This document shows, in pieces, positions 8,127 to 33,457 of a stretch of 64,000 nt of DNA (positions are counted from its first letter, which is position 1; every line of letters begins with the position of its first letter). This DNA is from Bacteroidota bacterium. GTDB taxonomy: Bacteria > Bacteroidota > Bacteroidia > Bacteroidales > UBA6013. Below the pieces are notes generated by a model. The model did not search any database. It worked only from the letters and a program-made list of their open reading frames with translations, and was not told where the DNA came from. Location of the stretch: NCBI GenBank assembly GCA_020048645.1, contig JAIFMG010000041.1, positions 1 through 64,000 on the forward strand. Reading direction: 5' to 3'. The translations under genes were made by a program, and so were the position numbers.

Positions 8127-8160
8127 GTCGGTATGTTTGAGGTTGGGTTGAAACAGGGGT

Positions 8161-8577: not shown

Positions 8578-8613
8578 CTTCTGTGGAATGTTAGTCAGGG
8601 AGGTGGAAATGGG

Positions 8614-10699: not shown

Positions 10700-10716
10700 G
10701 GTTGGTGGTTTTTGGG

Positions 10717-16023: not shown

Positions 16024-18753
16024 TCAATTGATGTCAACCCAGTCCATGCCGTTGAAATAGCGTAGCGTGCAGGTGCCGTCGAAGTTGTCCTGCATGTACA
16101 AGTCGCCCATCGAGGGCAGAATCGGCTCCGAATCCATCGGCTCCAGCCGCATGGCCGAGCTGATGTGCAGCTTCCGCTCCGGATTCCGCACACCCACGCC
16201 CAGCGCGCCCGTGTTCGGCGCGACAAAGACGCCCAAGTCCTCATTCAGGTTGGGATCCGTGTAGAACTGGTATCCGCCCGCGGCCCGCACCACGAACTCG
16301 TTCGGGCCCGAGCTGCTCACGGGCGTGCCCGCGTTCGAGTTGTCCCCGAACACGATCGAGCCGTCGCCGATGCTCTGGGCGTTCGTGCCGAAAGCCATCG
16401 TCCGGTAGCCGAAGGAAGTAACCCCCTCGTTGCCAATGGCGAAGGCGCCCTCGCCTTCCGCCACCGCGTAGGTGCCCAGCGCGAAAGAGTTGTCGCCCTG
16501 CGCGTAGGCGTTGAAGCCGATGGCGAACGCGCTGGAGCCGTAAATGACGCCGCCGCCCGTCATCGTCGGGTCGTAGATCGTCGGGTTGCCGCCCGCGTAG
16601 GCGAACTTGCCCAGGGCCACCGAGCCGTCGCCCAGCGCGTAGGCGTTCTCGCCAATGGCGAACGAGCCTTGCCCCTCGGAGACAGAACCGAAGCCGATCG
16701 AGTAGGAGTTCTGGCCGCGGGCCGAGGCCTGCTGGCCGATCGCGAACGAGCCGATGCCCGTGGCGTAGGCGCTGAAGCCAATGGCCACCGAGTTGGCGCT
16801 GAAGGTCTTGCCGGGCAACACCTTGCCATCCTTGTCGATGTCCGTCTGGTCGCCCCCCGCGAAGGCGGACTGGCCAATGGCAACCGAGCCAAGCCCCAAG
16901 GCGTAAGACTCGCCGCCCAAGGCCAAGGCGCCCCGTCCCTGCGCCGTCGAGCCCATGCCGTAGGCATAGGAGTTCTCGCCCCGGGCCGAGGCCCCCATGC
17001 CGATGGCGAAGGACGACAGGCCCGTGGCGTAGGAGCTGTTGCCAATGGCCACCGAGTTGGCGCTGAAGGTCGCCGTAGGGTCGATCACGTTGCCCGACCC
17101 GTCGATGGCAGTCTGGTCGCCGCCCGCGTAGGCGAACTGGCCGAGCGCCAGCGAGCCGAAGCCCAGCGCGAAGGCCGAGTTGCCAATGGCGAACGAGCCG
17201 TCGCCGTGCGCCAGCGAGTTGTAGCCGATCGAGTAGGCGTCCGTGCCAATGGCCGAGGAGCTTTCGCCAATGGCCAAGGACCCCAGCCCGTCGGCGGAGG
17301 CGCTGGCGCCCAGCGCGTAAGAGTTCGGACCATTGGTCACCGCGCCGATGCCCAGCGCGAAGCTCTGCGTCCCCTCCGCGGAGGCGTAGCGCCCGAAGGC
17401 GAAGCTGTTGTCTTCGTGCGTTACGGCACCGTCGCCAATGGCCACCGAAGAGGCGCCCAGGGCCTCGGCCTCGTAGCCGATGGCCGTCGAGTAGTCCCCG
17501 ATGGCACGCGGCCGGTAGCCGAAGGCCTGCGAGTAGTCGCCCATGGCCAGCGCGTGGTAGCCCGTGCCCATGGAGTTGGTGCCCACCGAGTCGGCGCCGC
17601 CGATCTGGACCCGGCCCACCCGGAAGGCCTCGCGGTTCGGGTACCAGAGCATCCGGGGCTCGTCGAGGACCACCTCGGCCGCCGTCGCTCCCGAGACCAG
17701 GAAGGCCTGCTCGGCCTCGCCCTCTTTGGCGGCCGTGTAGCCGCCCACGGCGAATCCGCCCGCGCCCGCCTTGCTCGAGTTGTCAGGGTAATAGACCCGG
17801 GTGCTGTCGGGCGTGACCCGCAGGTACTCGCGCGAGCCGAACTTCGAGGCGCCGTAGCCGCCCACGGCGAAGCCGCCCGCGCCCGCCTTGGCTTCCGACT
17901 CGGGCACATAGACCCGCGTGCTGTCGGGCGTCACGAAAAGGATGTTGTTGATGCCTGCCTTCGCGGCCGAGTAGCCGCCCACGGCGAAGCCGCCCGCGCC
18001 CGCCTTGGCGGCGTCGTCGGGCACGTAAACCCGGGTGCTATCGGGCGTCACGAACAGGAAGTTGCTCATGCCCGCCTTCGAGGCGCCATAGCCGCCCACG
18101 GCGAAGCCGCCCGCGCCCGCCTTGTCGGCCGCGTCGGGCACATACACGCGCGTGCTGTCGCGGGTGACCCGGAAGATCTCCTCGTCCGTGTTCAGGCTCG
18201 CGACCGAGAAGCCGCCCCAGCCGGTGGTCGGTGCCTCCTCGACGAAGACCCGCACCCCTTCGGGATAGACGGCGAAGACGGTCTGGCCCTCGCTGTTCTT
18301 GACCTCGAAGAGCGGGTCGTTCGGCCCGCTGGCGCCGTTGCCTTGCACGGCCAGCTTGCCCCCGGGGCTGTTGGTGCCCAGGCCGACGTTCTGGTCAGGG
18401 TTGGTCAGGAAGACCGAGCTGGAGCTGGCCTGCCAGAGGTTGTCGCCCGTGGAGGGCAAGGCCAGGTTGGTCCAGATTGTGCCGTTGTAGAAGAAGAAGC
18501 TGCCCAGGTCGGTGTCGAAGACCAGCAGGCCGGTGGCCGGGTTCGCGATGGCTACCCGCTGGGTCGAGCTTACCCTCGGCACCAGGATGCCCCTCTCGGT
18601 GGAGGAAATATCCAGCATCGCGGAGGGGTCGGGGGTCTGCCCCGGGACGTCCGAGATGCCGACGCTCTGCGCCATGGCCGCCCCTCCCACCAGGGAAAGG
18701 AGACCCAAGCTGGCCAGCGTCCGTTTCAATCCTTTGTTGATGATGTTTCGCAT
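16024..18753 (-). CDS. YadA-head-like repetitive surface protein
   Basis: 909 residues with a signal peptide (MRNIINKGLKRTLASLGLL...MAQ). The N-terminal section has the Bacteroidota structural-protein opening 'SAMLDISSTERGILVPRV'. Residues about 200-360 hold several 39-residue repeats built on 'PDSTRVYV' and 'KAGAGGFAVGGY'. Residues about 395-800 are YadA/Hia head repeats of 14 residues with 'S.AIG..A.A.G'. The C-terminus ends in 'YFNGMDWVDIN' and shows neither a YadA membrane anchor nor a T9SS domain. In this it resembles Bacteroidota tail-fibre-like surface proteins. Likely role: trimeric adhesive or structural surface fibre. It is co-directional with the T9SS gene 21 bases downstream. Confidence 0.85.
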   Translation of the reverse strand: MRNIINKGLKRTLASLGLLSLVGGAAMAQSVGISDVPGQTPDPSAMLDISSTERGILVPRVSSTQRVAIANPATGLLVFDTDLGSFFFYNGTIWTNLALPSTGDNLWQASSSSVFLTNPDQNVGLGTNSPGGKLAVQGNGASGPNDPLFEVKNSEGQTVFAVYPEGVRVFVEEAPTTGWGGFSVASLNTDEEIFRVTRDSTRVYVPDAADKAGAGGFAVGGYGASKAGMSNFLFVTPDSTRVYVPDDAAKAGAGGFAVGGYSAAKAGINNILFVTPDSTRVYVPESEAKAGAGGFAVGGYGASKFGSREYLRVTPDSTRVYYPDNSSKAGAGGFAVGGYTAAKEGEAEQAFLVSGATAAEVVLDEPRMLWYPNREAFRVGRVQIGGADSVGTNSMGTGYHALAMGDYSQAFGYRPRAIGDYSTAIGYEAEALGASSVAIGDGAVTHEDNSFAFGRYASAEGTQSFALGIGAVTNGPNSYALGASASADGLGSLAIGESSSAIGTDAYSIGYNSLAHGDGSFAIGNSAFALGFGSLALGQFAYAGGDQTAIDGSGNVIDPTATFSANSVAIGNSSYATGLSSFAIGMGASARGENSYAYGMGSTAQGRGALALGGESYALGLGSVAIGQSAFAGGDQTDIDKDGKVLPGKTFSANSVAIGFSAYATGIGSFAIGQQASARGQNSYSIGFGSVSEGQGSFAIGENAYALGDGSVALGKFAYAGGNPTIYDPTMTGGGVIYGSSAFAIGFNAYAQGDNSFALGTYAVAEGEGAFAIGNEGVTSFGYRTMAFGTNAQSIGDGSIVFGDNSNAGTPVSSSGPNEFVVRAAGGYQFYTDPNLNEDLGVFVAPNTGALGVGVRNPERKLHISSAMRLEPMDSEPILPSMGDLYMQDNFDGTCTLRYFNGMDWVDIN
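17740..18125 (-). repeat. Coding tandem repeats of 117 bp (39 aa) in the YadA-like gene
   Basis: The block 'cccacggcgaagccgcccg' recurs near 17744, 17861, 17978 and 18091, i.e. with a period close to 117 bp. The units encode 'KAGAGGFAVGGY' plus 'TPDSTRVYVP'. DNA identity between units is high, pointing to recent duplication or gene conversion. Confidence 0.85.
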
Positions 18754-18838: not shown

Positions 18839-21800
18839 TCACGCCTGGACCAAGGGCAGGCGCAGCGAGAAGTTGGCGAACTTGTCCACTTCGGAGCTCA
18901 CCTCCAGCCTTCCCTTGTGCATCTTGACCACGTCCATGCAGTAATAGAGGCCCAGGCCCGTGGCCTCGGCGGGAGGCCGCGTGGTGAACAAGGGGTCGAA
19001 GACCTTGCGGATGTCCTGCTCGGGGATGCCCACGCCGTTGTCCACCAGATCGAGCCGCACGTGGTCCTGCTCGACGCGGCCCACCACCCTAAACAAGGGC
19101 TGGTACGAAGCCCCGGCCTTCTGGCGCCGGTTGCGCATCGAAATGGCCGAGTTGTGGCACATGTGCCGGAGCATCTTGATGAACTCCGCCGGCACGATGC
19201 GCACGGGCAGGCTCGCCTCCTTGAACTCGAACTGGACCTGCGGGTTGGGAAGGCTCTTGTCAGAGCCGGCAATCTCAGTGAAGAGCCTTGGCACGTACTC
19301 GCGGCTGAACTGCGCCAGGTCCAAGGCTGCGAACTCCTGCGACTTGGGCCGGATCACGTCCTCCATCTCCTTGATGATGCGCGTGGCCACGCGCCCGTGC
19401 GAAAGGATCTTCGAGACGTTCGAGTGCATCATGCCCAGCACGTCCTCGAGCTCGGCCTTGAGCTCCTCGTCCAAGTCCGGGGCCTCCTCGGTGAGCATCT
19501 CCGATACCTCGTCCTTGAGCTCGAGCGTTACGTCCGAGAAGTTCACGATGTAATTCAGCGGGTTGATGACCCTGTCCACCAGGCCCTGCGTGAGCTTGCC
19601 CGCCGAGGCGAGCTGCTCTTGGCGCACCAGCTCTTCCTGGGTCTCGCGCAAGTTCAGCAAGGTGACCTGGAGGTCCTCCAGGATGCGGGTCTTGATGAAG
19701 GCCGAGATCAGGTGCTGCTTGAGGTTGTTGGTCATGCTGAAGTCGCTGCTGTCGAAGGCGTCGTGGTGCTTGAGGTTGGCCAGGATGATGAAGCCCTGCA
19801 CCTTGCTCTCGATGTTGACCACGATGACCAGGATGGACTTGGGCGGAGGCGAGAGCCCCAGCGGGTTGAGCGCCCGGTCCTCGATCTCGTTCTTGAAGAA
19901 GATGTCCTCGAAGACCTCCATCGAGCCCCGCAAGAAGAGGTCCTCGGCCTCCTCGAAGGTCAGCTCGTGGTTCTGGACCAGCTCCTTGTCCACCCCGAAG
20001 GTGGCCTTGTAGGTGAAGTTCCCCGTCTCCTGGTTGAGCACCAGCGCGCCCGCCTTCTCGGTGCCCTTGATCATCTTGAGCATGGTCAGCAGGGCATCGA
20101 AAAGGCCCTCCAGCTTGATCTGCGAGTTGATGGTCTTGACGATGCGGTTGATCTTGCCGAGCTCCTCGTTCTTCTTGGCCAGCTCCAGCGACTGCTTCTC
20201 CATCTCCTCCTTCTGCCGCACGACCTCCTCGGTGCGCTCCTCGATGGTCTTCTCCAAGGCCATTTTCTCCTTGAGCAACTGCCGCGAGCGCAGCTTGAAA
20301 GCGAACCAGATGGCCAACCCCAGGATGCTGAGGTAGAACACGAAGGCCCACCACTTGTAGAACCAAGGCCGCAGCACCTCGAAGCGGAAAGTGGCCTCCT
20401 GGCTGATGTTGCCCTCGCGGTCGCGGGCCTTCACCCGGAAGACATAGACCCCGGCGGGCAAGTTCGTGTATTCCTTGGTGTTGATGGCCCCGAAAGGCGA
20501 CCAAGACTCGTCGAAGCCCTCGAGCAGGTAGCTGAAGAGCAACTGGCCACGGGCATGGAAGCGCGGCGCCGCGAACTCGAAGCGGATGCTGTTGAAGTGG
20601 TGCGAGAGCCTTGGCGCGGCGCCCTCGGCCTGGCCCGGCGCGATGCCGCCCTCCGCGCGCAGGAAGGTCCCCGCGAAAAGCAGCGAGTCGCCAACGGTCG
20701 AAACCCGCCGAATCATGGCCCCGAACTCGATCGCCCGCTCGGCCATTTGCTCGCTGTCGAAGACCACCAGCCCCTTGGGCCCGGCCAGCCAGGTGCGGCC
20801 GCCGTCGAAGTAGATGCTGCTCACCACGAAGTCCGAAACCGACATGAACGGCTCGCGCAAGACCTTGGCAGAGTCCTCGCCAAGCCGCTCCAGAATGGCG
20901 ATGTCGCGCTGGCTGCCCTGCGTGGCCCAGTAGCGCCCGCTGGCGTCGCGCTTGAACAGGTCGAACCAGAAGTTCTGCCTGCCGAAAGGATAGGACTCCA
21001 CGAAACGGTCCTGGGCAGGGTCATAGACGTAGAAGTTCTGCTCGGAGCTGAAGACCACGTTGTCCTCCAGCAGGTTCATCTCGTAGCCGATGATCGTGTC
21101 GCTCGAGTAGCGCTTGTACTCCCAGTTCGAGGGATCGACCCGCACCAGGCCCTGCCTGAGGCTTTCCATCCAGATGCCCTTCCCTTTGACAGCCAGCAGC
21201 TTGGTCACCGAAACGCCAGCCTGGACCTCCCGTGCGAGCCTCCAGCCGTCGCCCTCGCGGGCCAGCACGGCCAGGCCGCTGGTCGTGCCCACGTAGAGCG
21301 TGTCGGCCGAGCCCGGCGATGCGATGATGCTCGTGGCGAACAGCTCGACCAGCAGCGCCGCCTCCCCCTGCTCGACCCGATAGACGCCCCGGCTGGTGGC
21401 CGCCAGCAGGTCGGGGCCGGCCTGCGCGAAGCCGAAGCATCCGTAGATGATTTCGGCCTGGCTCTCCGCGTCGGCGACCTTGGCGAACTGGCCGCTGGCG
21501 TCCATGTACTGGATGCCCTGCGAGCTGGCCAGATAGACCGTGCCATTGTGCCGGACCACCTCGCGCGCCTCGCCGCTGATGCCGTCCTCGTCGTCGAGCA
21601 CGCCGATGGGGCTGGGATACTCCACCAGGGCAAGCCCGTCGTTCAGGGCCAGCCAGATGTTGTGGTGCATGTCCACGAAAATGTCGTTGACCGACTCGTT
21701 CTCAAGCCCGTCGGATTTGTCGATGACCATGACCGGATGGCCCTCCTTGTCGGCGATGACCAGGCCCATGCCGTCGGTGCCCAGCGCGAACTGCCCGTTG

Positions 21801-22579
21801 GGGAGCAAGGTGCCGCAGGTGATCGATCCCAGCGACGCGCTGGCTTCCAGGCCCTTGACAATCCGTCCGTCGCGCAGCGCGAGGATGCCCAGCCGCCGGG
21901 TGATCAGCCAGTAGCCCCCATCGGGGTTCTCGACCATCGAGACCACTTCGATCTGCTTGGGGATGTCTTCGGCCATGCCCAGGCTGGCCAAGGGCTGGCC
22001 CGGCCCGTAGAACTGCGCCCCCGATTCCTTGCGGAAGATGTAGAGCCGATCGCCAAAGACGAAGGTGGAGACCACCAGGTCAACCGGCTCGATGATGCGG
22101 GTCAGGGACTGGCCATCCCATTGGAAGACGGCCGAATCGGAAGCGAAGTAGGCCCAGCCGTTGTCGGCCACCAGCGCCCGGTGGAAAGTCTGGTCGGCGA
22201 AGCGGAACATCGAGTCGGGCACCAGCGGGCGGAAGGTCATCCGGCCCAGCGCGTCCGGCAGCAGGCGCCCCAGCTCGCCCCGGGCGGCCACGAAGATCTG
22301 CCCGCTGTCGGCCAGCTCGGCCAGGTCGTTCACCTGCCGGTTGTCGGCCGTCGGTATCATGCGCCACTGCCAGCCGTCGTACTCGAGCACTCCGGCGAAG
22401 TTGGCCGCGAGGATCGTCCCCCGGGCGTCCTGCGTCAGGCTGAAGTTCTGCCCGTGCGCCTGGTACTGCTCCACGGAGAAGTAGCGCACCAGCGGACTGC
22501 CCGCCTGTTGCGCGCTGGCCAAAGGCATCCAGAGCCCTGTCGCAAGCCAAAGGAAAGAGATCGCGCGGAAGATTTTCAT
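18839..22579 (-). CDS. Second giant propeller/Y_Y_Y/GAF sensor with degenerate histidine-kinase core
   Basis: 1246 residues, paralogous in layout to the protein at 10717-14637. Signal peptide (MKIFRAISFLWLATGLWMPLASAQ), propeller-like periplasmic part (25-655), Y_Y_Y (660-736), membrane helix (743-765) and a coiled coil. Then GAF-like domain (816-946), HisKA-like helix and GHKL domain (1116-1243; 'DNGVGIP', 'ATGLGLY'). At the H-box it reads 'LVDRVINPLNYI', so Asp1002 (codon 19576-19574) replaces the catalytic His. The same replacement in two paralogues argues against sequencing error. The gene follows the nucleotide transporter with a 24-base gap, so the two are probably co-transcribed; no dedicated response regulator lies next to it. 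Confidence 0.93.
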   Translation of the reverse strand: MKIFRAISFLWLATGLWMPLASAQQAGSPLVRYFSVEQYQAHGQNFSLTQDARGTILAANFAGVLEYDGWQWRMIPTADNRQVNDLAELADSGQIFVAARGELGRLLPDALGRMTFRPLVPDSMFRFADQTFHRALVADNGWAYFASDSAVFQWDGQSLTRIIEPVDLVVSTFVFGDRLYIFRKESGAQFYGPGQPLASLGMAEDIPKQIEVVSMVENPDGGYWLITRRLGILALRDGRIVKGLEASASLGSITCGTLLPNGQFALGTDGMGLVIADKEGHPVMVIDKSDGLENESVNDIFVDMHHNIWLALNDGLALVEYPSPIGVLDDEDGISGEAREVVRHNGTVYLASSQGIQYMDASGQFAKVADAESQAEIIYGCFGFAQAGPDLLAATSRGVYRVEQGEAALLVELFATSIIASPGSADTLYVGTTSGLAVLAREGDGWRLAREVQAGVSVTKLLAVKGKGIWMESLRQGLVRVDPSNWEYKRYSSDTIIGYEMNLLEDNVVFSSEQNFYVYDPAQDRFVESYPFGRQNFWFDLFKRDASGRYWATQGSQRDIAILERLGEDSAKVLREPFMSVSDFVVSSIYFDGGRTWLAGPKGLVVFDSEQMAERAIEFGAMIRRVSTVGDSLLFAGTFLRAEGGIAPGQAEGAAPRLSHHFNSIRFEFAAPRFHARGQLLFSYLLEGFDESWSPFGAINTKEYTNLPAGVYVFRVKARDREGNISQEATFRFEVLRPWFYKWWAFVFYLSILGLAIWFAFKLRSRQLLKEKMALEKTIEERTEEVVRQKEEMEKQSLELAKKNEELGKINRIVKTINSQIKLEGLFDALLTMLKMIKGTEKAGALVLNQETGNFTYKATFGVDKELVQNHELTFEEAEDLFLRGSMEVFEDIFFKNEIEDRALNPLGLSPPPKSILVIVVNIESKVQGFIILANLKHHDAFDSSDFSMTNNLKQHLISAFIKTRILEDLQVTLLNLRETQEELVRQEQLASAGKLTQGLVDRVINPLNYIVNFSDVTLELKDEVSEMLTEEAPDLDEELKAELEDVLGMMHSNVSKILSHGRVATRIIKEMEDVIRPKSQEFAALDLAQFSREYVPRLFTEIAGSDKSLPNPQVQFEFKEASLPVRIVPAEFIKMLRHMCHNSAISMRNRRQKAGASYQPLFRVVGRVEQDHVRLDLVDNGVGIPEQDIRKVFDPLFTTRPPAEATGLGLYYCMDVVKMHKGRLEVSSEVDKFANFSLRLPLVQA

Positions 22580-22603: not shown

Positions 22604-25600
22604 CTAGTACGACGCGGCCACGCTCAGCTCGGGCCTGGACAGCATCGCGAGGAAACTCTTGGTAACTTCGACGTTGGAGTTGAGCAGGTCATAGAGCGAG
22701 ACCGTGGGGATGGCCATCAGCAGGCAGTCCTCGACGGCGCGCAGCTCGACCTGCTGGCGCCGCAGGGCGGGGGCGGTAAGCTCGCCCAGCAGCTCGGACG
22801 CGGCCCAGCGCGAGGGGACCTCGGGCACCGAAAGGCTCAGCCGGCCTTCGCAGACCAGCAGGAAGTCCTTGTCGGGGTCGAGCCGGAACTCCTGCCCGGC
22901 CGAGAGCCGGATAGGCTTGCAGGAGAAGGCCAGGCCGACGAGCAAGCTCTGGTGCAGGCTGCTGAAAAAGCGGTTCTGCCGAAGCAGCTCGATGCGGAGC
23001 CAGATGCCGACCCGCTGCGGATCTTTGCTGTAATTGAGGAACTTGCGCAAGAAGAGGGCCTCGGGCGGATACTTGAGCTCCACGTCGGCCAGCAGGCCCT
23101 CGAGGCTGCCTGGCCAGCGCGACAGCAAGACCTGGCAGGAGACCTCGCGGAGCAGCATGTTCGGGTGCAGGGCCAGCCCGCGCAGCAGCGACTGGGCCTC
23201 GGGGTCGGCCTGCTTCTCGAGCTCGAGCACGGCGCAGGCCTTGGTCCAGACCCGCAGGGTCGAGAAGTCGCGCATGAGCAGCTCCTTCAGGCGCGCCTGC
23301 ACGGGGTGACGCCGCTGCGGGAACAGGTTCTCGTAGGCCTTGACGGCCAAGGGCATCTCGGTGTTCTCGACCATGGGCACCACCAGGGCCTTGAGGTCTT
23401 CGGTGAGCACCATTTCCAGGATCTCGAGCGCGTAGTTGCGGTCCTCGCCCTCCGAGCTGAGCGACTCCTGCAAGGTGGCCATGGTCTGGTTGTCGTAGAG
23501 GCATCCCAGGAGCTGGAAGATCTTCTCCTGCGAGCTGCGCCGCTCGATCTCGAGGGCGTCCACCAGCCGCGGGTGCGAGACGGGGTCAAGGTCGATGCTG
23601 GTGGCCAGGAGCCAGACGTGGTGCTCGACCTGCTTTTCGACAAGGCCCTTGAAGAAGTTGGCGTTCTTCTCCGAGACCTTGTAGCCGAACAGGTGCAAAG
23701 CCCGCAGGACGTTGGCCTTGACCTTCAGCGAACTGTTGGTCAGCTTGTTGGCCAGCAGCTCCAGCTTGTCCTCCTCGATGATGGTCTCCATGGCCTTGAC
23801 CACGCGGAACTGTCGGTGCGGCTCGTCCATCTTCTTCTGGAAGTAGTTGTCGAGCCCGGGCAGGATGGGCGGGCCGATCTTGCGGATGGCAGAGGCGGCC
23901 AGGGTGGCCGTCTCGATGCTGGAAAGCGAGTTGACCACGAAGGCGTTGAGCTCCTTGCGGCGGATCTTCCCGGCCGAGACCAGGGCCTGCTCGCGGACCT
24001 GGCCGTTGTCGTCCTGCATGAGCGAGAGCAGGAGCCGGATGGCCTTGAACCGCCCCGTGTAGCCCAGCAGACGGGCCGCCTCGAGCCGCAGGGCCCAGTC
24101 GGCCTCGCCGCACATCCGGGCCAGGTCCTTCATCCGGCGGCGGCTCTTCTCTTCGAGGAACTCGCACAAGGCGCCGGCCTCGGACCCGTCCTCGCGGGAG
24201 GCCAGCCCGCGCAGGGTCGGGATGGCCGACAGGACCAGCCGCTCGCGCACGAGCGCCAGCAGCCGCCCGCGGAGGTCCGGGCGCAGGCCCAGCAGCTCCG
24301 TCAGGATGTCGCCCATGTGGGCAGGCTCAAGCCGCTCGACCAGCAGCAGCAGGTGCGCAAACTCCTCCGGCTCCGCCTCCGCCAGCCGAAGCCGAAGCGC
24401 CGCCAAGTTCGTATTCGAAAGCTCCTCCTCGTTCTTGAGGCTCTTGTTCTGCTTGATGGTCTCCAGGTTCGCCTGGAGGCGCATCTTGTACTCCTTGGCC
24501 ATTTTCAAGCTCTGCGGAACCCAGAACAGCAGCATGGCCAGCAGGATGACGTTGAAGTGGATGAGGCTCATGCCCGGCAGGAAGCCCAGCAGCAGCAGCA
24601 AGACCCCGGCGGCCACGCCCCCGAAGGCCTTGGGGCCCGACTCCATGAAGTTCTGCATGGCCACGCGGTCCTCCTTGGGCAGGGGCTGGAACAGCACCTG
24701 GAAGGCCGGATCGTAGAAGCTCGTGCGCAAGACCCTGAAAAACAGCTTGGTCATGGAAACAAAACCCAGGAACACAATGGCCGTGCCGAAGAAAAAACCG
24801 GAAAAAATCGCCAGGGCCACGCTCAGGCCCGAGATGAAAGGCAGCGAGGCCAGGCCGAAGCGGAGGCCGTAGCGGCTCAGCAGCTTGCCCGAGAGGAAGG
24901 TCTTCATCAGGAACTCCACGAAGGTGTTGAAGCCGAAGAACAGCGCGATGAAAACCGACAGCACCTGCGCCTCCGAAAACTGGTCCTTCAGGTTGACCAT
25001 GAAGATGAAGTCCACGAAGAAGTTGCCGAACATCGGCAGCAGGGACACCCAGAAGAAGGTGCGGAAATAAGGCTCGCGGAACAGCTCGCGCATGCTCTTG
25101 CCCACCGGCTTGCCGTCCTCGCCCAAGGCGGCCCCCTTGGGCGCGGGCTTCTGCGAAAGCCTCTCGCGGAAGCGCGCCACGATGGCCATCATCAGCACGA
25201 TGCAGACGGCCATGGCCCCGAAGCTGATCAGCATGACCTGCTCGGTGCTGATGTAGCGCAGCAGGATGGGCACCGAAAAGAAGCTCAGCATCGAGGCGAG
25301 CACCTCGCCCGTGCCAATCAGCCCGAAAAGCCGCTTGCCCTGCCGAAGGTCGAACACCTTGCCCGCCACGCCCCAGAAGGTCAGCGCCTGCACGAAGACG
25401 ATTACCCGCATCCAGACGAACATCAAGAACGCCAGCCACTTGTTGCCCGTGGCCATGTAGCCCAAGACCATCAGCAGGATGCTCGCCGCCAGAAAGACCA
25501 CCCCAGCCACCGAGAACACCGAGAAAGGCAGCTTCTGCTGGACCTTGCTGACCCCCTTGCCCAGGCCGAACAGGAAGAGGCCCCCGATCACATAAGCCAG

Positions 25601-25768
25601 CGGGATCGCGCCCCGCTCGAACTCCAGCAGGAACAAGCTCGTGGAAGAAGTGTAGAAGAATGCCGTGGCCGCACCTATGAAGAACGAGAAGGCCACCAGC
25701 TCCACGAGCTGCTTGCCCTCGCCCTTGCGAAGGTTGAACATGCGTTGGAACCACGAGCTCTTGGCCAT
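22604..25768 (-). CDS. Npt/Tlc-type nucleotide transporter fused to HEAT repeats and a cNMP-binding-like domain
   Basis: 1054 residues. The N-terminal 440 residues are a 12-helix MFS-like transporter related to bacterial ATP/ADP translocases ('FIGAATAFFYTSSTSLFLLEF', 'RVIVFVQALTFWGVAGKVFDLRQGKR'). Residues about 480-880 are helical HEAT-like repeats rich in Leu/Arg/Glu. Residues about 900-1040 resemble a cyclic-nucleotide-binding domain ('AGQEFRLDPDKDFLLVCEGRL', 'ASELLGELT'), but the phosphate-binding cassette is degenerate ('RRQQVELRA'), so ligand binding is doubtful. In free-living Bacteroidota such fusions are unlikely to steal host ATP. A scaffold or sensor role beside the giant sensor is an inference. 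It lies between a DUF2490 gene (22-base gap) and the sensor gene (24-base gap). Confidence 0.88.
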   Translation of the reverse strand: MAKSSWFQRMFNLRKGEGKQLVELVAFSFFIGAATAFFYTSSTSLFLLEFERGAIPLAYVIGGLFLFGLGKGVSKVQQKLPFSVFSVAGVVFLAASILLMVLGYMATGNKWLAFLMFVWMRVIVFVQALTFWGVAGKVFDLRQGKRLFGLIGTGEVLASMLSFFSVPILLRYISTEQVMLISFGAMAVCIVLMMAIVARFRERLSQKPAPKGAALGEDGKPVGKSMRELFREPYFRTFFWVSLLPMFGNFFVDFIFMVNLKDQFSEAQVLSVFIALFFGFNTFVEFLMKTFLSGKLLSRYGLRFGLASLPFISGLSVALAIFSGFFFGTAIVFLGFVSMTKLFFRVLRTSFYDPAFQVLFQPLPKEDRVAMQNFMESGPKAFGGVAAGVLLLLLGFLPGMSLIHFNVILLAMLLFWVPQSLKMAKEYKMRLQANLETIKQNKSLKNEEELSNTNLAALRLRLAEAEPEEFAHLLLLVERLEPAHMGDILTELLGLRPDLRGRLLALVRERLVLSAIPTLRGLASREDGSEAGALCEFLEEKSRRRMKDLARMCGEADWALRLEAARLLGYTGRFKAIRLLLSLMQDDNGQVREQALVSAGKIRRKELNAFVVNSLSSIETATLAASAIRKIGPPILPGLDNYFQKKMDEPHRQFRVVKAMETIIEEDKLELLANKLTNSSLKVKANVLRALHLFGYKVSEKNANFFKGLVEKQVEHHVWLLATSIDLDPVSHPRLVDALEIERRSSQEKIFQLLGCLYDNQTMATLQESLSSEGEDRNYALEILEMVLTEDLKALVVPMVENTEMPLAVKAYENLFPQRRHPVQARLKELLMRDFSTLRVWTKACAVLELEKQADPEAQSLLRGLALHPNMLLREVSCQVLLSRWPGSLEGLLADVELKYPPEALFLRKFLNYSKDPQRVGIWLRIELLRQNRFFSSLHQSLLVGLAFSCKPIRLSAGQEFRLDPDKDFLLVCEGRLSLSVPEVPSRWAASELLGELTAPALRRQQVELRAVEDCLLMAIPTVSLYDLLNSNVEVTKSFLAMLSRPELSVAASY

Positions 25769-25790: not shown

Positions 25791-26432
25791 TCAGAGACGT
25801 ATCCGGTAGCCGATGCGCAGGTAGGCCATGTAGCGGTGCTCGGCATACCAGTCGGGCAGGTAGGCCAGCAGGAAGCTCAGCCGGCTGTCGCTCATCACGT
25901 GCAGGCTCGGACCCAGGAACCAGTTCGGCGTGTCGTAGGGCACATCCTGCAAGAAGATGCTCAGGAACCCGAAGTGGTACTGCGGAGTCACCTGCCAGCG
26001 CACGTACTGCACGATCTGGAAGTGGTCCCTGGCCTTGTCGTTCAGGGTCCAGTAGTAGCGGCCCTGCAACTGCACCAGCAGCTTTCCCGCGAAGGCCGAA
26101 GTGTTGTAGTCGGCCCGGATGCCCGTCCACGCCCGGCCGATGCCCCAGGGGCTTTCCAGGCTCTCGGCGGGCTGGCGCCGGAAGTAGTCCACCTTGGTAT
26201 AGCTGAACAGCGTCAGCTTGCCGAAGGTCTTGCCCAGGATGATGTCCGTCCGGCCCAAGCCGAAAGGCTCGATGTGGTCGATCGGGCGGAAGCGGAGGTC
26301 CCATTTGCCCTTGTCGATGGTCAGGCGCAGCTCCGGCGACCACTTGTGCCAGACCTCGGGGTCGAAGTCTTGCGCGGACAGCCGGGAGGCGGCGGCGCCC
26401 CAGAGGGCCAGCAGGAAGAGGAATCTTTTCAT
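25791..26432 (-). CDS. DUF2490-family outer-membrane barrel protein
   Basis: 213 residues with a signal peptide (MKRFLFLLALWGAAASRLSAQ). The rest alternates polar and hydrophobic residues with aromatic girdle positions ('LFSYTKVDYFRR', 'LLVQLQGRYYWTL', 'YMAYLRIGYRIRL'), and the last residue pattern fits an outer-membrane barrel. DUF2490 proteins are uncharacterised Bacteroidota outer-membrane proteins. It is placed between the HMGL enzyme gene (52-base gap) and the nucleotide transporter gene (22-base gap), suggesting a matched outer-membrane partner for the same pathway. Confidence 0.82.
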   Translation of the reverse strand: MKRFLFLLALWGAAASRLSAQDFDPEVWHKWSPELRLTIDKGKWDLRFRPIDHIEPFGLGRTDIILGKTFGKLTLFSYTKVDYFRRQPAESLESPWGIGRAWTGIRADYNTSAFAGKLLVQLQGRYYWTLNDKARDHFQIVQYVRWQVTPQYHFGFLSIFLQDVPYDTPNWFLGPSLHVMSDSRLSFLLAYLPDWYAEHRYMAYLRIGYRIRL

Positions 26433-26484: not shown

Positions 26485-27708
26485 TCAGCCGCCCTGCGCC
26501 TGCAACTGGTCGATCACCTGGGCGAACTCGGCCTTGTCGATCACGGCCCGCCCGCGGCTGAACGCGGTCTCCTTCACCCAGTTGAGCAGCCAGGCCACCT
26601 GCCCGTCCTCCAGCTCGCGGCCCAGCTCCTGGGCCACCTTGCGCACGACGCGGCGGTTGGCGAGCTGCGTCAGGAACACCTGCTGCTCGATGCCCAGCAC
26701 CTTCTTGGCGTCGAAAGGCTGGAAAGCCTCCGGCGTCACGAAAGGCGTGCCCGTGGAGATGGTGTTGATGCCCGTGCCCACGATCGGGTCGGTGATCTTG
26801 AACGGCACCCCCGTGAACTCGCTCACGCGCTTGGCGATGGGGTAGATGAGCTTCAGGTCGATGCCCTCGGTGAAAGGCCTCGTGGAAATACCCGTTCGCT
26901 CCTCGATGCGCTCCTCCTGGTAGCCCAGCATGAACAGGAGCTGCTCGGTGGCCAACAAGCCGTTGCGCTCGCCCAGGCCCAGCCACGAGCTCGTGATCAA
27001 CTTCACGTCGCGGCGCATGGCCATGATGTTGTTGATCGAGGCGAAGCCCAGGTCGTTGTGGAAGTGCGTGCTCAGCGGGATCTCCGGGTTCACCCTGGCC
27101 CGGAGCCGGTCGATGTAGCGCTCGCACTCGAACGGGTAGAACACCCCGATCGAGTCGGCGAAGCCAATGGTCGAGGCACCCAGCTCGTAGAAGCGGTTGG
27201 CCACCTCGGCCACGAACTCCGGCTCGTTCTCCGAGGCGCCCGCGAGTTGCATGTCGATGGGGATGCCCCCCGAGCGGTCGAGCGCGTACTTGAGGATGTC
27301 CGCCCCGAAGTCAACCAGCTCGTGCGGCTCCTTCTTGAGCATCGAGCGCGTGAGCGTCCCCCCCACCGGGAAGACGATGGCCGCCCGCGGATGCCTGGCG
27401 CCCCGCACCGAGTCGATGCAAAGATCCACGTCCTCGCGCATGGCCCTACCGTTGGAAGCCAGGTGGCAGGTATCGACCTGGTCGGCCAAGGCCCGGATGG
27501 CCTCGAACTCGCGCTTGCCAATCGATGGGAAACCCGCCGCGAAGACCAGGTGGCGGTGGCCATGCCCCCGGAACAGCTCCGAGGTCATGCGGGCAATCTC
27601 CACCCGCTGCTCGCCCGTCAGGAGCGTCTTGGCCTGGGCGCCGTCGCGGGCGACTTCCTCCCAGATGACAACCTTGCCTGCCTTGAGTGATTCAACGATT
27701 TGGTCCAT
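26485..27708 (-). CDS. HMGL-fold enzyme of the isopropylmalate/homocitrate synthase family
   Basis: 407 residues, cytoplasmic, TIM-barrel aldolase-type domain. The family fingerprints are 'WEEVARDGAQAKTLLT' (the R-D-G-x-Q metal and acyl-CoA site) and 'LSTHFHNDLGFASINN' (the HxH metal ligands). 'GLGERNGLLATEQLL' is the turn with the conserved Glu/Asn. The protein lacks the C-terminal LeuA regulatory domain and is shorter than LeuA. No leuBCD, lys or nif genes are nearby, so the exact substrate (oxo acid plus acyl-CoA) cannot be assigned; citramalate, homocitrate and isopropylmalate synthase remain possible. It is 17 bases downstream of the TPR-TonB receptor gene and probably in the same operon. 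Confidence 0.85.
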   Translation of the reverse strand: MDQIVESLKAGKVVIWEEVARDGAQAKTLLTGEQRVEIARMTSELFRGHGHRHLVFAAGFPSIGKREFEAIRALADQVDTCHLASNGRAMREDVDLCIDSVRGARHPRAAIVFPVGGTLTRSMLKKEPHELVDFGADILKYALDRSGGIPIDMQLAGASENEPEFVAEVANRFYELGASTIGFADSIGVFYPFECERYIDRLRARVNPEIPLSTHFHNDLGFASINNIMAMRRDVKLITSSWLGLGERNGLLATEQLLFMLGYQEERIEERTGISTRPFTEGIDLKLIYPIAKRVSEFTGVPFKITDPIVGTGINTISTGTPFVTPEAFQPFDAKKVLGIEQQVFLTQLANRRVVRKVAQELGRELEDGQVAWLLNWVKETAFSRGRAVIDKAEFAQVIDQLQAQGG

Positions 27709-27725: not shown

Positions 27726-30347
27726 TTAGAATTTGAAACCCGCCCGAAGGTGCGCATTGAAACCGTTCTGTGGCAGCGCCGAAACCTCCGGATAGCCGGA
27801 AGCCTCGTTCAGCCCAGGCGAGAAATAGGTGTTGTTGAACAGGTTGTTGAGCGTGAGCTGAAGCGAGAAGTGCGGCAACTGGTAGGTGGCCGTGGCGAAG
27901 AAGACAGCATACGGGTCGAAGGTGAACTTGTTCTTCGGCGCCGTGGTGTTCTCGCCCGTGGGCTTCTCGCCCACGAAGTTCATCCGCAGGTGTACGTTGA
28001 GCCGGGGGATGACATCGTAGTAGGCCCCGATGTTGATCTGGTGCGCCGCGATGTCGGCCACGCGCAGTTGGCGCAGGGTGTCGCCCCCTTCCGAGACCAG
28101 CGGCACGCCCCGCTCGTTGACGGGGTCGAGCTGGAAAGGCCGGGTGTGGGTGTAGTTGGCGTAGAGCTCCAGCTTGCCCATGTCCAGCAGCGCGTTGCCC
28201 ATCAGGCCTGTGACGCGCTGCCGCCCCACCGGCTGGTTCTGGTTGGTGCGCAGGCTATCGACATAGACCTCCTGGATGATGTTGCTGTAATAGGAAAGGT
28301 AGCCCGAAAGGTCGGTGTAGAGCTGGCCGCCCATCCACTGCCGCGCCACGCTCAGCTCCGCGTTCTTGACCTTCTCGGGCTGCAAGTTCGGGTTGGGCAG
28401 CTCGCGCTTGCCCGCCACGGTCGAGAACTTCTCGCGGTTGGTCGCGTCCTTGAAGGCCTCCGAGTAGATGGCCTTGAAGATGAAGTCGCCCGGCGTGGCC
28501 ACCAGGGCCAAGCGGGGGTTGAAGACATTGCCGTAGCCCTGGTTGTCGCGGATGCGGTTGTTGTCGTAGCGGAGGCCCAGGGTCAGGCTCAGCAAGTCCC
28601 CGTAGTTGAAGCGGGCTTGCGAGTAGAGGCCCAAGTCTGTGGAAAACAAGACGTTGCCCCCAGCTATCTCGGTGCCCGGGAATCCGTTCTGCTCGGCATC
28701 GTTCTGGAGCGAGATCAAGTAGTCGCCCTGAACCGAGCTGAAGCGGTTCTCGATGCCGGCCACGAGGCTGAACCAGTTGTTGGGGACCAGGAAGATCTTG
28801 AACTCGTTCCGCAACTGGCTGGACTTCTGGAACAGGTAGGTGCTGTCCTGCCGGGGGGCCATGTCCTCCATCAGCTCGGCCAGGCCGTAGGCCCTGCCCG
28901 TGGAGTACCGGTAGTTGCGGAAGCGGACGATGCGGTTGTCGCGGTGGAAGTCGTGGGTCTTGAATTGGGTTAGATTGCTGATGCTGAGCACGTTCGGAAT
29001 CAATTCCCTCTCGTAGCGCAAGTAGAGGAACTGGTGTACGGGCGCCCAGCTCTGGCCCTGGTCGGCCCCCAGGTAGTCGATGTCGGAATACTGCACGCCG
29101 GGCGCCTCGGTCTTGTACCAATGGTAGAAGCCCAAGGTGAAGTCGTCGATCTGCAGCTTGGCATTCACCGCGAAAGACTCGGCATGGTCGGAGTACTCGA
29201 TCGGGTCGAAGAAGGACTTGTCCAGGTCGTAGGCCCGGCGCAAGCCCGCCTCCGTGGGGACGATGAGGCTGTCGCCGAAGACCTGGTAATAGGCGTGGCT
29301 TGTGGGGTGGCCCAGCAGGAACCCGGCCACCTCGTTCCGGTCGGACAGCGTCAGGCTGCGCAAGTAGTCGCTGCGGACGCTGTCGAAGCCCGGCGGCTCG
29401 AAGTCGTGCAGCTCCAGGTGCGAGAAGTCCGCCTCGTCGGTCTCGAAAAGGCGCGTCGTGATGGAGAAAGAGATTGGAGCCTCGCGGGCCTTGGCCGCGA
29501 AGGTGGCGTCCAGGAAGCGGGTGTTGTAGGAACCGTAGCCGACCTGGCCCGTGGCCCCGAAGAGCTTCCCTTCCTCGATGAACTCCTCGGGCTGCTTGGT
29601 GATGATGTTGATCACCCCCAAGAAGGCGTTCGATCCATACATGGTAGAGGCGGGCCCGAAGACGACCTCGACGCTCTTGAGGTTGCTCATGGGGAACTGC
29701 CTCGAAAGATAAACGTTGCTGGACCACAGGTCGTTGTCCTCGACCCCATCCACCAGGAACAAGGTCCGGTTGGTGTTGATGGAGCGGTATCCGCGCTGGT
29801 AGATGTGCGAGTAGAGGTTGCCGTTGGAGCGGGAGATGTCGAAGCCCGGCAGGTCGTGCATGATCTGCTCGAAGTCCCCGTAGCCCGACTTGAAGACCTG
29901 CTCCTGGGTGACCAGGTTGACCGTGGCCGGTGCCTCGAAGAGGCTCTCTGTGGTCTTGGAGACGGAGGTAACCTGTCGGTTGCTGCCGATCTGCTTGAGC
30001 AGGCGGACCATCTCGACAAAGCGCGGCGAGGCGCCCGAGATGAGGTTGGGGTTGAAGTTGGGCGAGATCTTCAGCAGCTCCGAGCAGTTCTGGCCAGCCG
30101 CCGCGTAGTCGTCCTTGGCCAGGTAGGTCTCGGCCAGCAGCATCAGGGCCTGCACCTTGTAATCGTCGTTGGGCCGCTCGGGCGCCGTGCAGGGCGTCAG
30201 GTCGTGGATGACCCGGTCGAAGGCCCCCCGCTCGAAATTCTTGCGGGCGTCCTCGATTCCGTCGCGGTCGCACTGGGCGTAAGCCCCGAACAAAGGCAGG
30301 CCCCAGAGCAGGGCCGCCAGCGCCAATTTCGAAAAGCTCTTGTTCAT
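27726..30347 (-). CDS. TonB-dependent receptor with N-terminal TPR-like segment
   Basis: 873 residues with a signal peptide (MNKSFSKLALAALLWGLPLFGAYAQ). Residues about 27-110 are helical and TPR-like ('ARKNFERGAFDRVIHDL', 'LAETYLAKDDYAAAGQN') instead of the usual carboxypeptidase-regulatory domain. The plug domain follows (130-235: 'ATVNLVTQEQVFKSG', 'LFLVDGVEDNDLW', 'VVFGPASTMYGSNAFLGVINI') and then the barrel to a terminal Phe ('AHLRAGFKF'). No SusD partner is present. Its ATG overlaps the stop of the nSTAND gene as ATGA, so translation of the two is coupled. The ligand is unknown; the link to an intracellular NTPase suggests a signalling as well as transport function. Confidence 0.92.
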   Translation of the reverse strand: MNKSFSKLALAALLWGLPLFGAYAQCDRDGIEDARKNFERGAFDRVIHDLTPCTAPERPNDDYKVQALMLLAETYLAKDDYAAAGQNCSELLKISPNFNPNLISGASPRFVEMVRLLKQIGSNRQVTSVSKTTESLFEAPATVNLVTQEQVFKSGYGDFEQIMHDLPGFDISRSNGNLYSHIYQRGYRSINTNRTLFLVDGVEDNDLWSSNVYLSRQFPMSNLKSVEVVFGPASTMYGSNAFLGVINIITKQPEEFIEEGKLFGATGQVGYGSYNTRFLDATFAAKAREAPISFSITTRLFETDEADFSHLELHDFEPPGFDSVRSDYLRSLTLSDRNEVAGFLLGHPTSHAYYQVFGDSLIVPTEAGLRRAYDLDKSFFDPIEYSDHAESFAVNAKLQIDDFTLGFYHWYKTEAPGVQYSDIDYLGADQGQSWAPVHQFLYLRYERELIPNVLSISNLTQFKTHDFHRDNRIVRFRNYRYSTGRAYGLAELMEDMAPRQDSTYLFQKSSQLRNEFKIFLVPNNWFSLVAGIENRFSSVQGDYLISLQNDAEQNGFPGTEIAGGNVLFSTDLGLYSQARFNYGDLLSLTLGLRYDNNRIRDNQGYGNVFNPRLALVATPGDFIFKAIYSEAFKDATNREKFSTVAGKRELPNPNLQPEKVKNAELSVARQWMGGQLYTDLSGYLSYYSNIIQEVYVDSLRTNQNQPVGRQRVTGLMGNALLDMGKLELYANYTHTRPFQLDPVNERGVPLVSEGGDTLRQLRVADIAAHQINIGAYYDVIPRLNVHLRMNFVGEKPTGENTTAPKNKFTFDPYAVFFATATYQLPHFSLQLTLNNLFNNTYFSPGLNEASGYPEVSALPQNGFNAHLRAGFKF

Positions 30348-33300
30348 GGATTGTCTCCTCCTGTCGTTTGCGATGGGGCCGCGACCCCGATGTACTTCTC
30401 GCGCTCGCGCTCGTCGAGGGTGCGGCCCACCATGGCGCGGACCTGCCCGGCCAGGGCCGGGAGGCTCACGGGCCAGCGTCGGATGGTCCGGTCGGCGCTC
30501 GAGGAGACCAGGAAGGCCCCCTGCTCGACGAACTCCAGGTCGTAGATCCAGTTCTGGTGCGTGCCGATGACCACCGGCTCGGTGTTGGGAAGGTCGCGGC
30601 GCCAGAGGCGGACGGTGCCGTCGTAGCTGCCCGTGGCCATGAGCCGGTCGCCCTCGGGGCTGGTCGCGAAGTCGATGGCGTTGACCTGGGTGGAGTGGCC
30701 GATGAACTCGCTGACCTTGCGGCGGTTCTCGTAGTCCCAGATCTCGACCCGTCCGTTATGCAGGCCCACGGCCACCAGGCCCTTGTCGTCGAGGAAGGCC
30801 ACGGCGCCGATGGGCACCTCGGGCGCCACCACGAACTTCGAGTAGCGCTGGCTCTGCGGGTCCACCAGGATCAGGCTGCCGTCGGAGCCGGCCAGCGCGA
30901 AGCCGGTCTCGCTCGGGCTGATGTCGGCGGCCACGAAGCGCGTGGGGAATTTCGTGGAGAGCACCCGCGAGAAGCCCTGCCCATCCTTGACCCAGATGGA
31001 GGCCACGCTGTCGGCCGAGGCGGCGATGAAAATCTGGCCCGAGCGCGAGAACTCGATGGCCGTGACGATGTCCTTGTGGTCGCTCGGCAGGGCCGCGGCC
31101 TGCCCGTCGCGCCAGTCGTTCCAGAAGTAGAGCTTGCCGGTGTGGGTGCCCGCCACCACGTCGCCCTCGGCCCCGAAGGAGACCGAGCGCATGACCCGCT
31201 CGCGGCGGTTGCCGGGGACTTCGAGCCTGGCGACGGACTGGCCGGCGGCGTCCCAGACCTGCACGCTGGCCTCGTCGCTGGCCGAGACGAAATAGGTCCC
31301 TGCCTTCTCGAAGCTGACCGTGCGGATGCCGTCGCCGCCCGCCCGGGTGACGTTTTGGAGGTCGGCCACCGAGAGCAGGGAGTTGTAGAGGTCGGGCGAG
31401 AAGTGGTCGCCGCCGTTGGCCAGGTGGATGGCGTAGGCTTCCAGGGCCAGGAGCCGGGCCAGCTCGGCGTTCTCGTCGCTGGCCTCGTAGAGCTGCTGGG
31501 CCTTGATGGCCACGGCGCGCGAGGTGGCTATCTGGCTGAGCCTGTCGGCGATGGCCCGCTGCTCCTGGGCGACGTCCGCCGTGGAGTCGGCCCTGTCGCG
31601 CTCCTGGCGCATCCGGCGCTCGTTGAGCAGGGCCCGCTGGAGGTTCTGCCGTGCCTCGAGGCCCAGCACCACGGCCGTGTCGCGCTCCTTCTGGGCAGCC
31701 CGCTGGGCGATGATGGCCAGCCGCTGCTGGTCGAGGGCGAACTCCTTCTCGAGGTTGGTGAAGATTTCCTGCTGCTCGGCGATGGCCTGCTGCTGGTCGG
31801 CAATCTTGCGCTGCGAGGTGGCCACCTGGCGCTCCTTCTCGGCCAGTTGCTTCTGCTGCTTGGCCTCGTTGGTCTGCGAAAGGGCGATGGCCAGGCTCTG
31901 GTCGGCCTGGAACTTGAGCAGGGCCGCGATCAGCAGCAGCGCGATGGAAATCAGGGCCGCCGCGCCCAGGACCACGGAGGTCGTCCGTGCGCGGCGCAGC
32001 TCGCGGGCGCGCTTGGCCTCCCTCTCCTTTTCGAGCCGCTGGGCCTCCGAGTAGCTGGTCCGCAGGAAGCCCACCACCCTGTCGAAGGCGGGGTCGTAGC
32101 GGGCCGCCCAGAACTGGGTGGGCTGCTGCTTCTGGAACCAGTTCCAGGCCACCTCCAGCTCGGGGTTGACCCAGAGCGCCGTCTGGCCGGTGTGGTAGAG
32201 CTTGGACGAGTTGGACAGGCGGAGGTAGAGCTCGGCCGACTTGGTCTCCTCCTCCACCCACTCGCGCAGCCTGCGCCAGATGCGCATGATGCTCTCGTGC
32301 GAGATGTCCAGGATGGTCTCGGAGGTCAGGATGACCGAGGGCGGGGGCATGATGAAGGAGTTGCCCTCGCCGCGGAAGCGCTCGACCACTTCGACCAGCT
32401 CGTGCTCCTTGACCCCGGCCACCTGGCTGATCTTGCTGAGCTCGGTGGGCTTGCGGGTGGCCCGGTTGTCGGGGCCGAGTATCGTCAGGGTCTTGAACAC
32501 CTTCTCGGCCAGGCGCTTGCCGCCCTCGTCGGGGATGCCGTTGAAGATCTCCTCGGCGTGCAGCGAGAGCGAGCTGGCCATTCCGCCCACGGTCTCGTAG
32601 TGGTGGACGTCGATGGGCACGTCGTCCTGGAAGTTGTTGGCGTGGTAGTCCCAGGTGCGCATCAGGGCGTGCTGCATCACCGGAAGCTGGTCGTAGTTGT
32701 TCGCGAAGTCCTCGATCACCTTATCGACCAGCTTGGGGGTGTAGAGCTGTCCGTTGATTTCGATGGGGCCGTAGATGGCCGTGCGGATTTCCTCCTGGTT
32801 CATCCGGGGCACCAGGTAGGCGCCCTCGTTGATCATCTCGTTGAGGCCGCGGAACTCGGTGCAGTCGTCGATGAAGTCGGAGCGCATGGTCACCACGCTG
32901 TAGTAGTTCTCCTGCGAGGCCGTGGAGTACTCCGTCAGCAGGTCCACGAAGCGGAGGTTGTCCTCGTGGGTCTCTGGGGAGATGTTCTCAATCTTGAAGC
33001 GGAAGATCTCCTCGAACTGGTCCACGATCAGCAGCCATTTCTTGGGGCTGGTCTTGTTGACCTTCTCGAAGAGGCGCAGCAGGCTGGGCGGGCCGTGCCG
33101 GAGCTCGTCGGCCACCTGCCGCGACGACTCGAACAGGCCCTTGGTCTCGGGGCTGCGCCGCAAGCGGTCGAAGATGGCGCTGGCCAGGTTCAGGATGGGG
33201 TCGGTGCCAGGCGTGAAGGTGACCACGCGCCACTCGCTCGTCTCCAACTGCGTCTGGCTCCGCAGAAGCGTAGGAATCAGGCCCGCCAGGACCAGGGAGG

Positions 33301-33457
33301 ACTTGCCGCTGCCCGATGAGCCGATCAGGGCCAAGAAGCGGTTGTGCGTCAAGATTTTCAGCACCTCCACCACCTGGCTCTCCCTGCCAAAGAACAGGTC
33401 GGCCTCATCGGTACGGAAACTTCGTATGCCCGGAAATGGATTGCGTTTCACTGACAA
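30344..33457 (-). CDS. Membrane-anchored nSTAND1-type NTPase with C-terminal WD40 repeats
   Basis: 1037 residues. It begins with the typical nSTAND opening 'NPFPGIRSFRTDEADLFFGR', Walker A 'GSSGSGKSS' (46-54) and Walker B 'LLIVDQFEEIF' (near 142). A helical region follows, then a membrane helix (about 490-515) and a long Gln/Glu/Arg coiled coil (515-640). The C-terminal WD40 propeller (about 700-1010) includes 'GSYDGTVRLWRRDL' and 'SSADRTIRRWPV'. STAND NTPases act as ligand-triggered molecular switches. No toxic effector domain (nuclease, TIR, caspase) is fused, so a defence role is not supported; a regulatory role tied to the coupled TonB receptor fits better. It is the first gene of the minus-strand block and has its own promoter. 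Confidence 0.9.
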   Translation of the reverse strand: MSVKRNPFPGIRSFRTDEADLFFGRESQVVEVLKILTHNRFLALIGSSGSGKSSLVLAGLIPTLLRSQTQLETSEWRVVTFTPGTDPILNLASAIFDRLRRSPETKGLFESSRQVADELRHGPPSLLRLFEKVNKTSPKKWLLIVDQFEEIFRFKIENISPETHEDNLRFVDLLTEYSTASQENYYSVVTMRSDFIDDCTEFRGLNEMINEGAYLVPRMNQEEIRTAIYGPIEINGQLYTPKLVDKVIEDFANNYDQLPVMQHALMRTWDYHANNFQDDVPIDVHHYETVGGMASSLSLHAEEIFNGIPDEGGKRLAEKVFKTLTILGPDNRATRKPTELSKISQVAGVKEHELVEVVERFRGEGNSFIMPPPSVILTSETILDISHESIMRIWRRLREWVEEETKSAELYLRLSNSSKLYHTGQTALWVNPELEVAWNWFQKQQPTQFWAARYDPAFDRVVGFLRTSYSEAQRLEKEREAKRARELRRARTTSVVLGAAALISIALLLIAALLKFQADQSLAIALSQTNEAKQQKQLAEKERQVATSQRKIADQQQAIAEQQEIFTNLEKEFALDQQRLAIIAQRAAQKERDTAVVLGLEARQNLQRALLNERRMRQERDRADSTADVAQEQRAIADRLSQIATSRAVAIKAQQLYEASDENAELARLLALEAYAIHLANGGDHFSPDLYNSLLSVADLQNVTRAGGDGIRTVSFEKAGTYFVSASDEASVQVWDAAGQSVARLEVPGNRRERVMRSVSFGAEGDVVAGTHTGKLYFWNDWRDGQAAALPSDHKDIVTAIEFSRSGQIFIAASADSVASIWVKDGQGFSRVLSTKFPTRFVAADISPSETGFALAGSDGSLILVDPQSQRYSKFVVAPEVPIGAVAFLDDKGLVAVGLHNGRVEIWDYENRRKVSEFIGHSTQVNAIDFATSPEGDRLMATGSYDGTVRLWRRDLPNTEPVVIGTHQNWIYDLEFVEQGAFLVSSSADRTIRRWPVSLPALAGQVRAMVGRTLDEREREKYIGVAAPSQTTGGDNP

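Follow-up and report, generated by a model that had tools for sequence, protein, structure and literature searches.

What does a nucleotide-carrier-like protein do when it bears HEAT repeats and a cNBD-like domain at its C-terminus and is encoded in a bacterium that appears to be free-living? The question is raised by the gene at 22604-25768 (minus strand) of the window, by which we mean the whole stretch of 64,000 nucleotides of Bacteroidota DNA that was analysed. The gene is a single intact open reading frame with an ATG start that encodes 1054 residues. From the reading frame, Pfam, profiles and an AlphaFold model, the protein was assigned three parts, an NTT-type MFS carrier, HEAT repeats and a degenerate cNBD-like domain, and is called NTT-HEAT in the following.

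Architecture of NTT-HEAT and its carrier core

The carrier domain comprises residues ~10-435. Pfam TLC (PF03219) gave no direct match to NTT-HEAT, where only a sub-threshold MFS_1 match was seen in the carrier region, and a TLC search across the window's own genome had no match either. The homology to NTT carriers was therefore shown by profile and structure. A subfamily carrier profile from 14 relatives matched CpNTT1 (9j3n, E 1.5e-17) and AtNTT1 (9j3j, 7e-18). The AlphaFold model, with 63 relatives in the alignment, reached a pLDDT of 88.2 and a pTM of 0.81; in it, 12 TM helices are followed by an extended solenoid of HEAT repeats and, at the C-terminus, by a small beta-roll domain. The top five PDB matches of the model in Foldseek were AtNTT1/CpNTT1 structures.

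The HEAT repeats at ~450-914 were recognised by Pfam (HEAT_2 7e-11) and form an all-helical repeat in the model; HEAT_2 was present in all 18 family members checked. At ~915-1045 the profile matched the cNBDs of cGMP kinases at 5e-11, and the model shows a beta-roll. Since no phosphate-binding cassette is conserved across the 63 relatives, G975 is the only well conserved residue and Pfam PF00027 (cNMP_binding) was reached by just one of 18 members, the term degenerate fits this cNBD-like domain. In some members it is absent or shortened, and it is therefore not essential to the scheme proposed below.

The source genome, 4.8 Mb in size and 92% complete, is consistent with a free-living host. 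The sequence-only reading had named an Npt-type carrier, HEAT repeats, a cNMP-like domain without a normal phosphate cassette and an apparently free-living genome, and all four agree with our data, except that the HEAT region is nearer 460 than 400 residues long. The fusion that it singled out is real, but not new, since a study of 2017, whose dataset included 43 NTT sequences from Bacteroidetes, described both NTT-HEAT and NTT-HEAT-cNBD proteins of unknown function as widespread among free-living bacteria (Major, Embley and Williams 2017, PMC5381601).

In AtNTT1, four charged residues are crucial for ATP/ADP exchange (PMC10654386, PMC3306366). These residues, K155, E245, E385 and K527, were compared with the window carrier, which is about 18% identical to AtNTT1/CpNTT1. 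The equivalents of K155 and E245 are absent, so that at least two of the four exchange residues are missing, and the E245 position is occupied by Arg in 15 of 17 relatives. E385 corresponds to D253. For K527, the HMM alignment alone points to the nearly invariant K380, which is a possible equivalent at most because the MAFFT and HMM alignments differ by four columns. A tree of 61 carrier domains, two of them canonical (Megaera Tlc and CpNTT1) and several of its rows with long branches, grouped the window carrier with 17 cassette-bearing relatives (support 99) and split it from Megaera Tlc and CpNTT1 (support 100).

Judged from these residues, canonical ATP/ADP exchange by the window carrier is unlikely. 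That the protein serves energy parasitism as an ATP/ADP exchanger, as its homology to NTT carriers might suggest, is hardly credible, and we do not count it among the live rivals. The carrier lies outside the parasite clade and lacks key residues, the 4.8-Mb genome has many signalling genes, and relatives occur in cultured free-living species. The identity as a parasite carrier was rejected on the tree and the missing exchange residues, in agreement with the sequence-only reading, which had argued against an energy parasite.

The same reading had offered a membrane sensor or scaffold instead. As a pure scaffold or sensor, the carrier would not transport and would be a membrane anchor and receptor only, which fits the absent E245 and K155 equivalents. 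However, the 63-member alignment has 19 invariant columns, and 17 of them fall in the carrier core, which is therefore under strong constraint. The invariant charged residues are R146, E285 and R348, and K145, K289, R368 and K380 are nearly invariant. Since the invariant columns, charged residues included, cluster there, we argue that the core still has something to bind or transport. A carrier without transport is thus very doubtful; of the earlier suggestion, the link to propeller-Y_Y_Y sensors held up, given the conserved cassette described below, but a scaffold in place of a transporter is not supported.

Other NTT carriers were met along the way. Two more NTT-HEAT paralogues, 25-28% identical and ~9 kb apart, lie in the same genome without a cassette (G000:C232, 16790-19351 and 28646-31195). 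Single-domain NTT carriers of ~420-500 residues were found at L033, L034, L036, L037, L039, L040, L050 and L055, in normal-sized Bacteroidota genomes and also on an Azotobacter plasmid. Some genomes have a single-domain carrier beside a fused one of ~900 residues.

A conserved cassette around the NTT-HEAT gene

In the window, NTT-HEAT is one of thirteen genes that run in one direction, on the minus strand, from 33457 down to 7794. The first gene (30344-33457) encodes an nSTAND1 NTPase with a WD40 propeller (Pfam nSTAND1 5e-87, WD40). It is followed by a TonB-dependent receptor with a TPR-like N-terminal region (27726-30347; Pfam) and by an enzyme resembling HMGL/isopropylmalate-homocitrate synthases (26485-27708; PF00682 1e-36, NCBIfam LeuA-type matches below cut-off) in a position that we call the slot. 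Next comes a 213-residue exported protein (25791-26432) with a signal-like N-terminus, without a Pfam match and probably an outer-membrane barrel, whose homologues mostly stand beside HMGL-type slots. The NTT-HEAT gene then precedes, by 24 bp, the gene for a sensor kinase of 1246 residues with a propeller and a Y_Y_Y domain (18839-22579; Pfam, motif).

Beyond this kinase lie a protein with YadA-head repeats (16024-18753; annotation) and a 390-residue exported protein with a weak T9SS C-terminal tail (14830-16002; sequence). The YadA-head protein, 909 residues long, exported and with many repeats, stands within the run and was not seen in the cassettes of relatives. A second propeller-Y_Y_Y kinase (10717-14637) is 32% identical to the first. 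The last four genes encode a small cytosolic histidine kinase (9845-10720, start inferred; 43% identical to Runella DR864_RS28880), a receiver-SpoIIE (PP2C) phosphatase (8614-9768; Pfam, 47% identical to the Runella RR-SpoIIE), an RsbW-like anti-sigma/kinase ATPase (8161-8577; Pfam, the sole homologue found in the genome) and a STAS protein of the anti-anti-sigma type (7794-8126, start inferred; PF01740 2e-21). The partner-switch genes were located by searches with Runella proteins. Between the STAND gene and the first sensor kinase, adjacent genes are separated by -4 to 52 bp, and further along by at most 192 bp; because these gaps are short and all genes point the same way, transcription of the run as one unit is plausible. 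Just past the cassette, at 2825-6667, is another propeller-Y_Y_Y sensor with a SpoIIE phosphatase domain at its end.

Relatives were collected from the flanks in same-order genomes and from a scan of the contig collection, which gave no match with the window protein alone as query and 80 loci with an alignment query. A co-directional order of nSTAND1-WD40, TonB receptor, one or two slot genes, NTT-HEAT and propeller-Y_Y_Y sensor was found, which for convenience we call the STAND-NTT cassette. On a Runella rosea plasmid the gene order is the same as in the window. Among the best 80 loci, 54 had adequate flanks (>6.5 kb upstream and >3.5 kb downstream), and 52 of these had all three flanking families, nSTAND1-WD40, TonB and propeller-Y_Y_Y, a fraction that applies to the window branch because the 80 loci are the best matches by similarity to that branch. 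The two exceptions are distant matches in Acidobacteriota and Thermodesulfobacteriota. The hosts are mostly Bacteroidota, also Ignavibacteriota and Fibrobacterota; two MAG contigs with the cassette are labelled Pseudomonadota and may be mis-binned.

The search was also run in reverse, with the STAND-WD40 protein against 198 same-order genomes, and gave 42 strong (best) places. At 33 of them an NTT-HEAT gene lies within 10 kb, in 32 cases co-directional, and among the remaining nine are at least two (G175, G065) whose NTT-HEAT gene is on a short contig or stands where a contig ends. NTT-HEAT was present in 38 of the 40 genomes with STAND-WD40 as against 51 of the 198 overall (hypergeometric 4e-27, with shared ancestry ignored). 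For an internal control, NTT-HEAT paralogues of ~1100 residues in the same genomes, two of them in the window's own, were inspected and lacked the cassette neighbours. A chance neighbourhood was rejected on this control and the reverse search.

A second, divergent form of the cassette was found at 10 loci, with NTT-HEAT, a HAMP-SpoIIE protein, a TIR-like gene, nSTAND1-WD40 and an outer-membrane protein. The SpoIIE part of this form shares ~44% identity with the SpoIIE domain that ends the sensors of HMGL-type cassettes, and its outer-membrane protein and the TonB receptors match in their N-terminal regions (1e-11 at best). Because the two divergent forms share four components, the cassette link is robust. 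The TIR-like protein was seen between the SpoIIE and STAND-WD40 genes at L083, 13255-14667 (Pfam TIR_2 E 0.003, a weak match), with homologues in the second form at L074, L075, L078-L080, L084, L085, L089 and L091.

We regard it as nearly certain that the cassette is a conserved gene system. The sequence-only reading had put the gene directly ahead of a giant sensor gene and suspected a tie to Y_Y_Y sensors. The sensor is indeed the neighbour and the tie is strongly conserved, in a carrier that is not nested among parasite carriers with full residues; the reading named this one neighbour where the window has a cassette of thirteen genes. In the literature searched, which was open-access only and is weak evidence, no description of a STAND/TonB/slot/propeller-kinase/SpoIIE cassette was found, and the neighbourhood reported for NTT-HEAT fusions in 2017 was a following cNBD gene only (PMC5381601). 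The new part is apparently the neighbourhood, the domain fusion being known.

Slot enzymes, sensors and output

The slot holds exchangeable, mutually unrelated enzymes, and the HMGL type adds the barrel protein. The slot is a formyltransferase-like protein in 30 loci and an HMGL/LeuA-like protein with the barrel in ~11, and GNAT enzymes of two kinds account for 15 and ~8 loci. The first kind, a 286-residue family without a Pfam match, was identified as a GNAT fold by a structure model. Methyltransferases also occur. At L132, 7053-9143, the slot gene encodes a fusion of an HMGL/LeuA-like with a methyltransferase domain, two slot types in one protein.

This exchange of small-molecule transferases at one position (FeeM-like GNAT, formyltransferase-like, methyltransferase, HMGL-like) would suit a home-made signal similar to quorum sensing. 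The slot enzyme would make a diffusible signal, NTT-HEAT would export or import it, the TonB receptor would recover it and the propeller sensor would read it, a different slot enzyme meaning a different signal. However, the GNAT model most resembles ordinary N-acetyltransferases, and FeeM, an N-acyl amino acid synthase, is matched only weakly (E 3e-7 to 3e-3). We hold such a signal to be a live rival, if a rather improbable one.

The other live rival is a nutrient-uptake locus, where the TonB receptor and the carrier import a nutrient across both membranes, perhaps nucleotide-like or another phosphorylated or acidic compound. The slot enzyme would process the nutrient, the propeller kinase, SpoIIE and STAS proteins would only regulate the locus, and the HEAT/cNBD part would tune transport. 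A TonB receptor and a carrier in one operon are what uptake calls for, and the carrier core is the best conserved part. Propeller-Y_Y_Y sensors are classic nutrient sensors, and SusC with hybrid two-component sensors shows such regulation for glycans. Against this, the slot enzymes are unrelated single-step transferases and synthases (formyl-, acyl-, methyl-transferase, HMGL) that do not form one catabolic pathway, and no SusD-like lipoprotein or hydrolase was recognised among the Pfam-annotated cassette genes. Moreover, the TonB barrel is missing from the second cassette form, in which STAND-WD40 and SpoIIE are kept. Nutrient uptake as the role of the locus is unlikely, but to be taken seriously.

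The propeller-Y_Y_Y sensor ends in one of three ways, in a kinase with the H-box His, in a kinase with Asp for His, or in a SpoIIE phosphatase. Since the output domain is either a kinase or SpoIIE, signalling is the constant of the cassette. Both propeller kinases of the window have Asp-Arg in place of the His-Glu of the H-box (VDRxxNPLN; LVDRVINPLNY in the first, IVDRIINPLNY in the second), and the small kinase has an intact one (IIHEIRNPLNF), so that two Asp-type sensors stand with one His-bearing kinase. In loci with >7 kb of downstream flank, a small His-bearing kinase was found near 16 of 16 Asp-type sensors as against 5 of 28 His-type sensors (Fisher 5e-8, with shared ancestry ignored). 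The receiver-SpoIIE, RsbW-like and STAS proteins are encoded together at 7794-9768.

Proposed function and likeness to known systems

We propose that NTT-HEAT is the inner-membrane part of a trans-envelope sensing cassette, a transport-coupled sensor that feeds partner switching, and give this reading an even chance. A ligand would enter the periplasm through the TonB receptor and meet the propeller-Y_Y_Y sensor and the carrier core, which would transport or merely bind it. The cytosolic HEAT/cNBD-like part could read the conformational state of the carrier and dock cytosolic partners, the STAND-WD40 ATPase and the kinases. For output, the small histidine kinase would pass the signal to the receiver-SpoIIE phosphatase. 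The latter would dephosphorylate the STAS protein, by which the RsbW-like partner would be freed or bound. The slot enzyme may make or modify the ligand. The ligand, the direction of the signal and the role of the carrier as a transporter-sensor (transceptor) are inferred; the parts may be physically coupled, and co-directional synteny is a functional link, not proof of physical contact. One point against the proposal is that a simple two-component-to-SpoIIE chain offers no evident role for a STAND ATPase.

NTT-HEAT fusions are found in cyanobacteria, Chlamydiaceae and oomycetes, and in the years since their description in 2017 nothing had pointed to their function. A conserved operon, found from both directions, now ties one large NTT-HEAT branch to signal transduction and is this family's first genomic hint of function. 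It names partners that can be tested and is present in bacteria that can be grown, with Runella, Spirosoma endophyticum and Mucilaginibacter aquatilis as cultured hosts. NTT genes become less reliable as a mark of intracellular life, and the branch offers a case in which a sensor may have evolved from an ancestral nucleotide carrier. Whether this amounts to a new class of trans-envelope signalling, with an NTT-type transceptor and its HEAT arm, a STAND ATPase, an exchangeable signal-making or signal-modifying enzyme, His-less propeller kinases and a SpoIIE/STAS output, we put forward tentatively, inclining to doubt. In that case, the NTT-HEAT proteins of cyanobacteria, Chlamydiaceae and oomycetes would be suspects for signalling, not for energy import.

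Several known systems resemble parts of this locus. SLC9C1-type transporters likewise have a C-terminal cNBD, and the model is similar on the cNBD side; with another transporter fold, a voltage-sensor domain and a ligand-binding cNBD, they are an analogy only. AtNTT1 and CpNTT1 (PDB 9j3j-9j3o) share the MFS-type fold and a significant profile homology with the window carrier, whereas the latter has a fused C-terminal half and altered exchange residues. The fusions described in 2017 have the same three-part architecture (PMC5381601), but the conserved cassette, absent from that description, is a feature of the window branch, and its cNBD-like fold lacks the conserved ligand-binding cassette. 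SusC-type loci of Bacteroidota also combine a TonB receptor with a propeller-Y_Y_Y sensor; the window differs in that SusD and glycan enzymes are not recognised, the output is directed towards SpoIIE, and STAND-WD40 and NTT-HEAT are constant. The receiver-SpoIIE, RsbW-like ATPase and STAS proteins resemble the RsbU/SpoIIE-RsbW-STAS modules, but in the window the input would be a propeller sensor, a STAND ATPase and a carrier instead of a stressosome or a simple phosphatase sensor.
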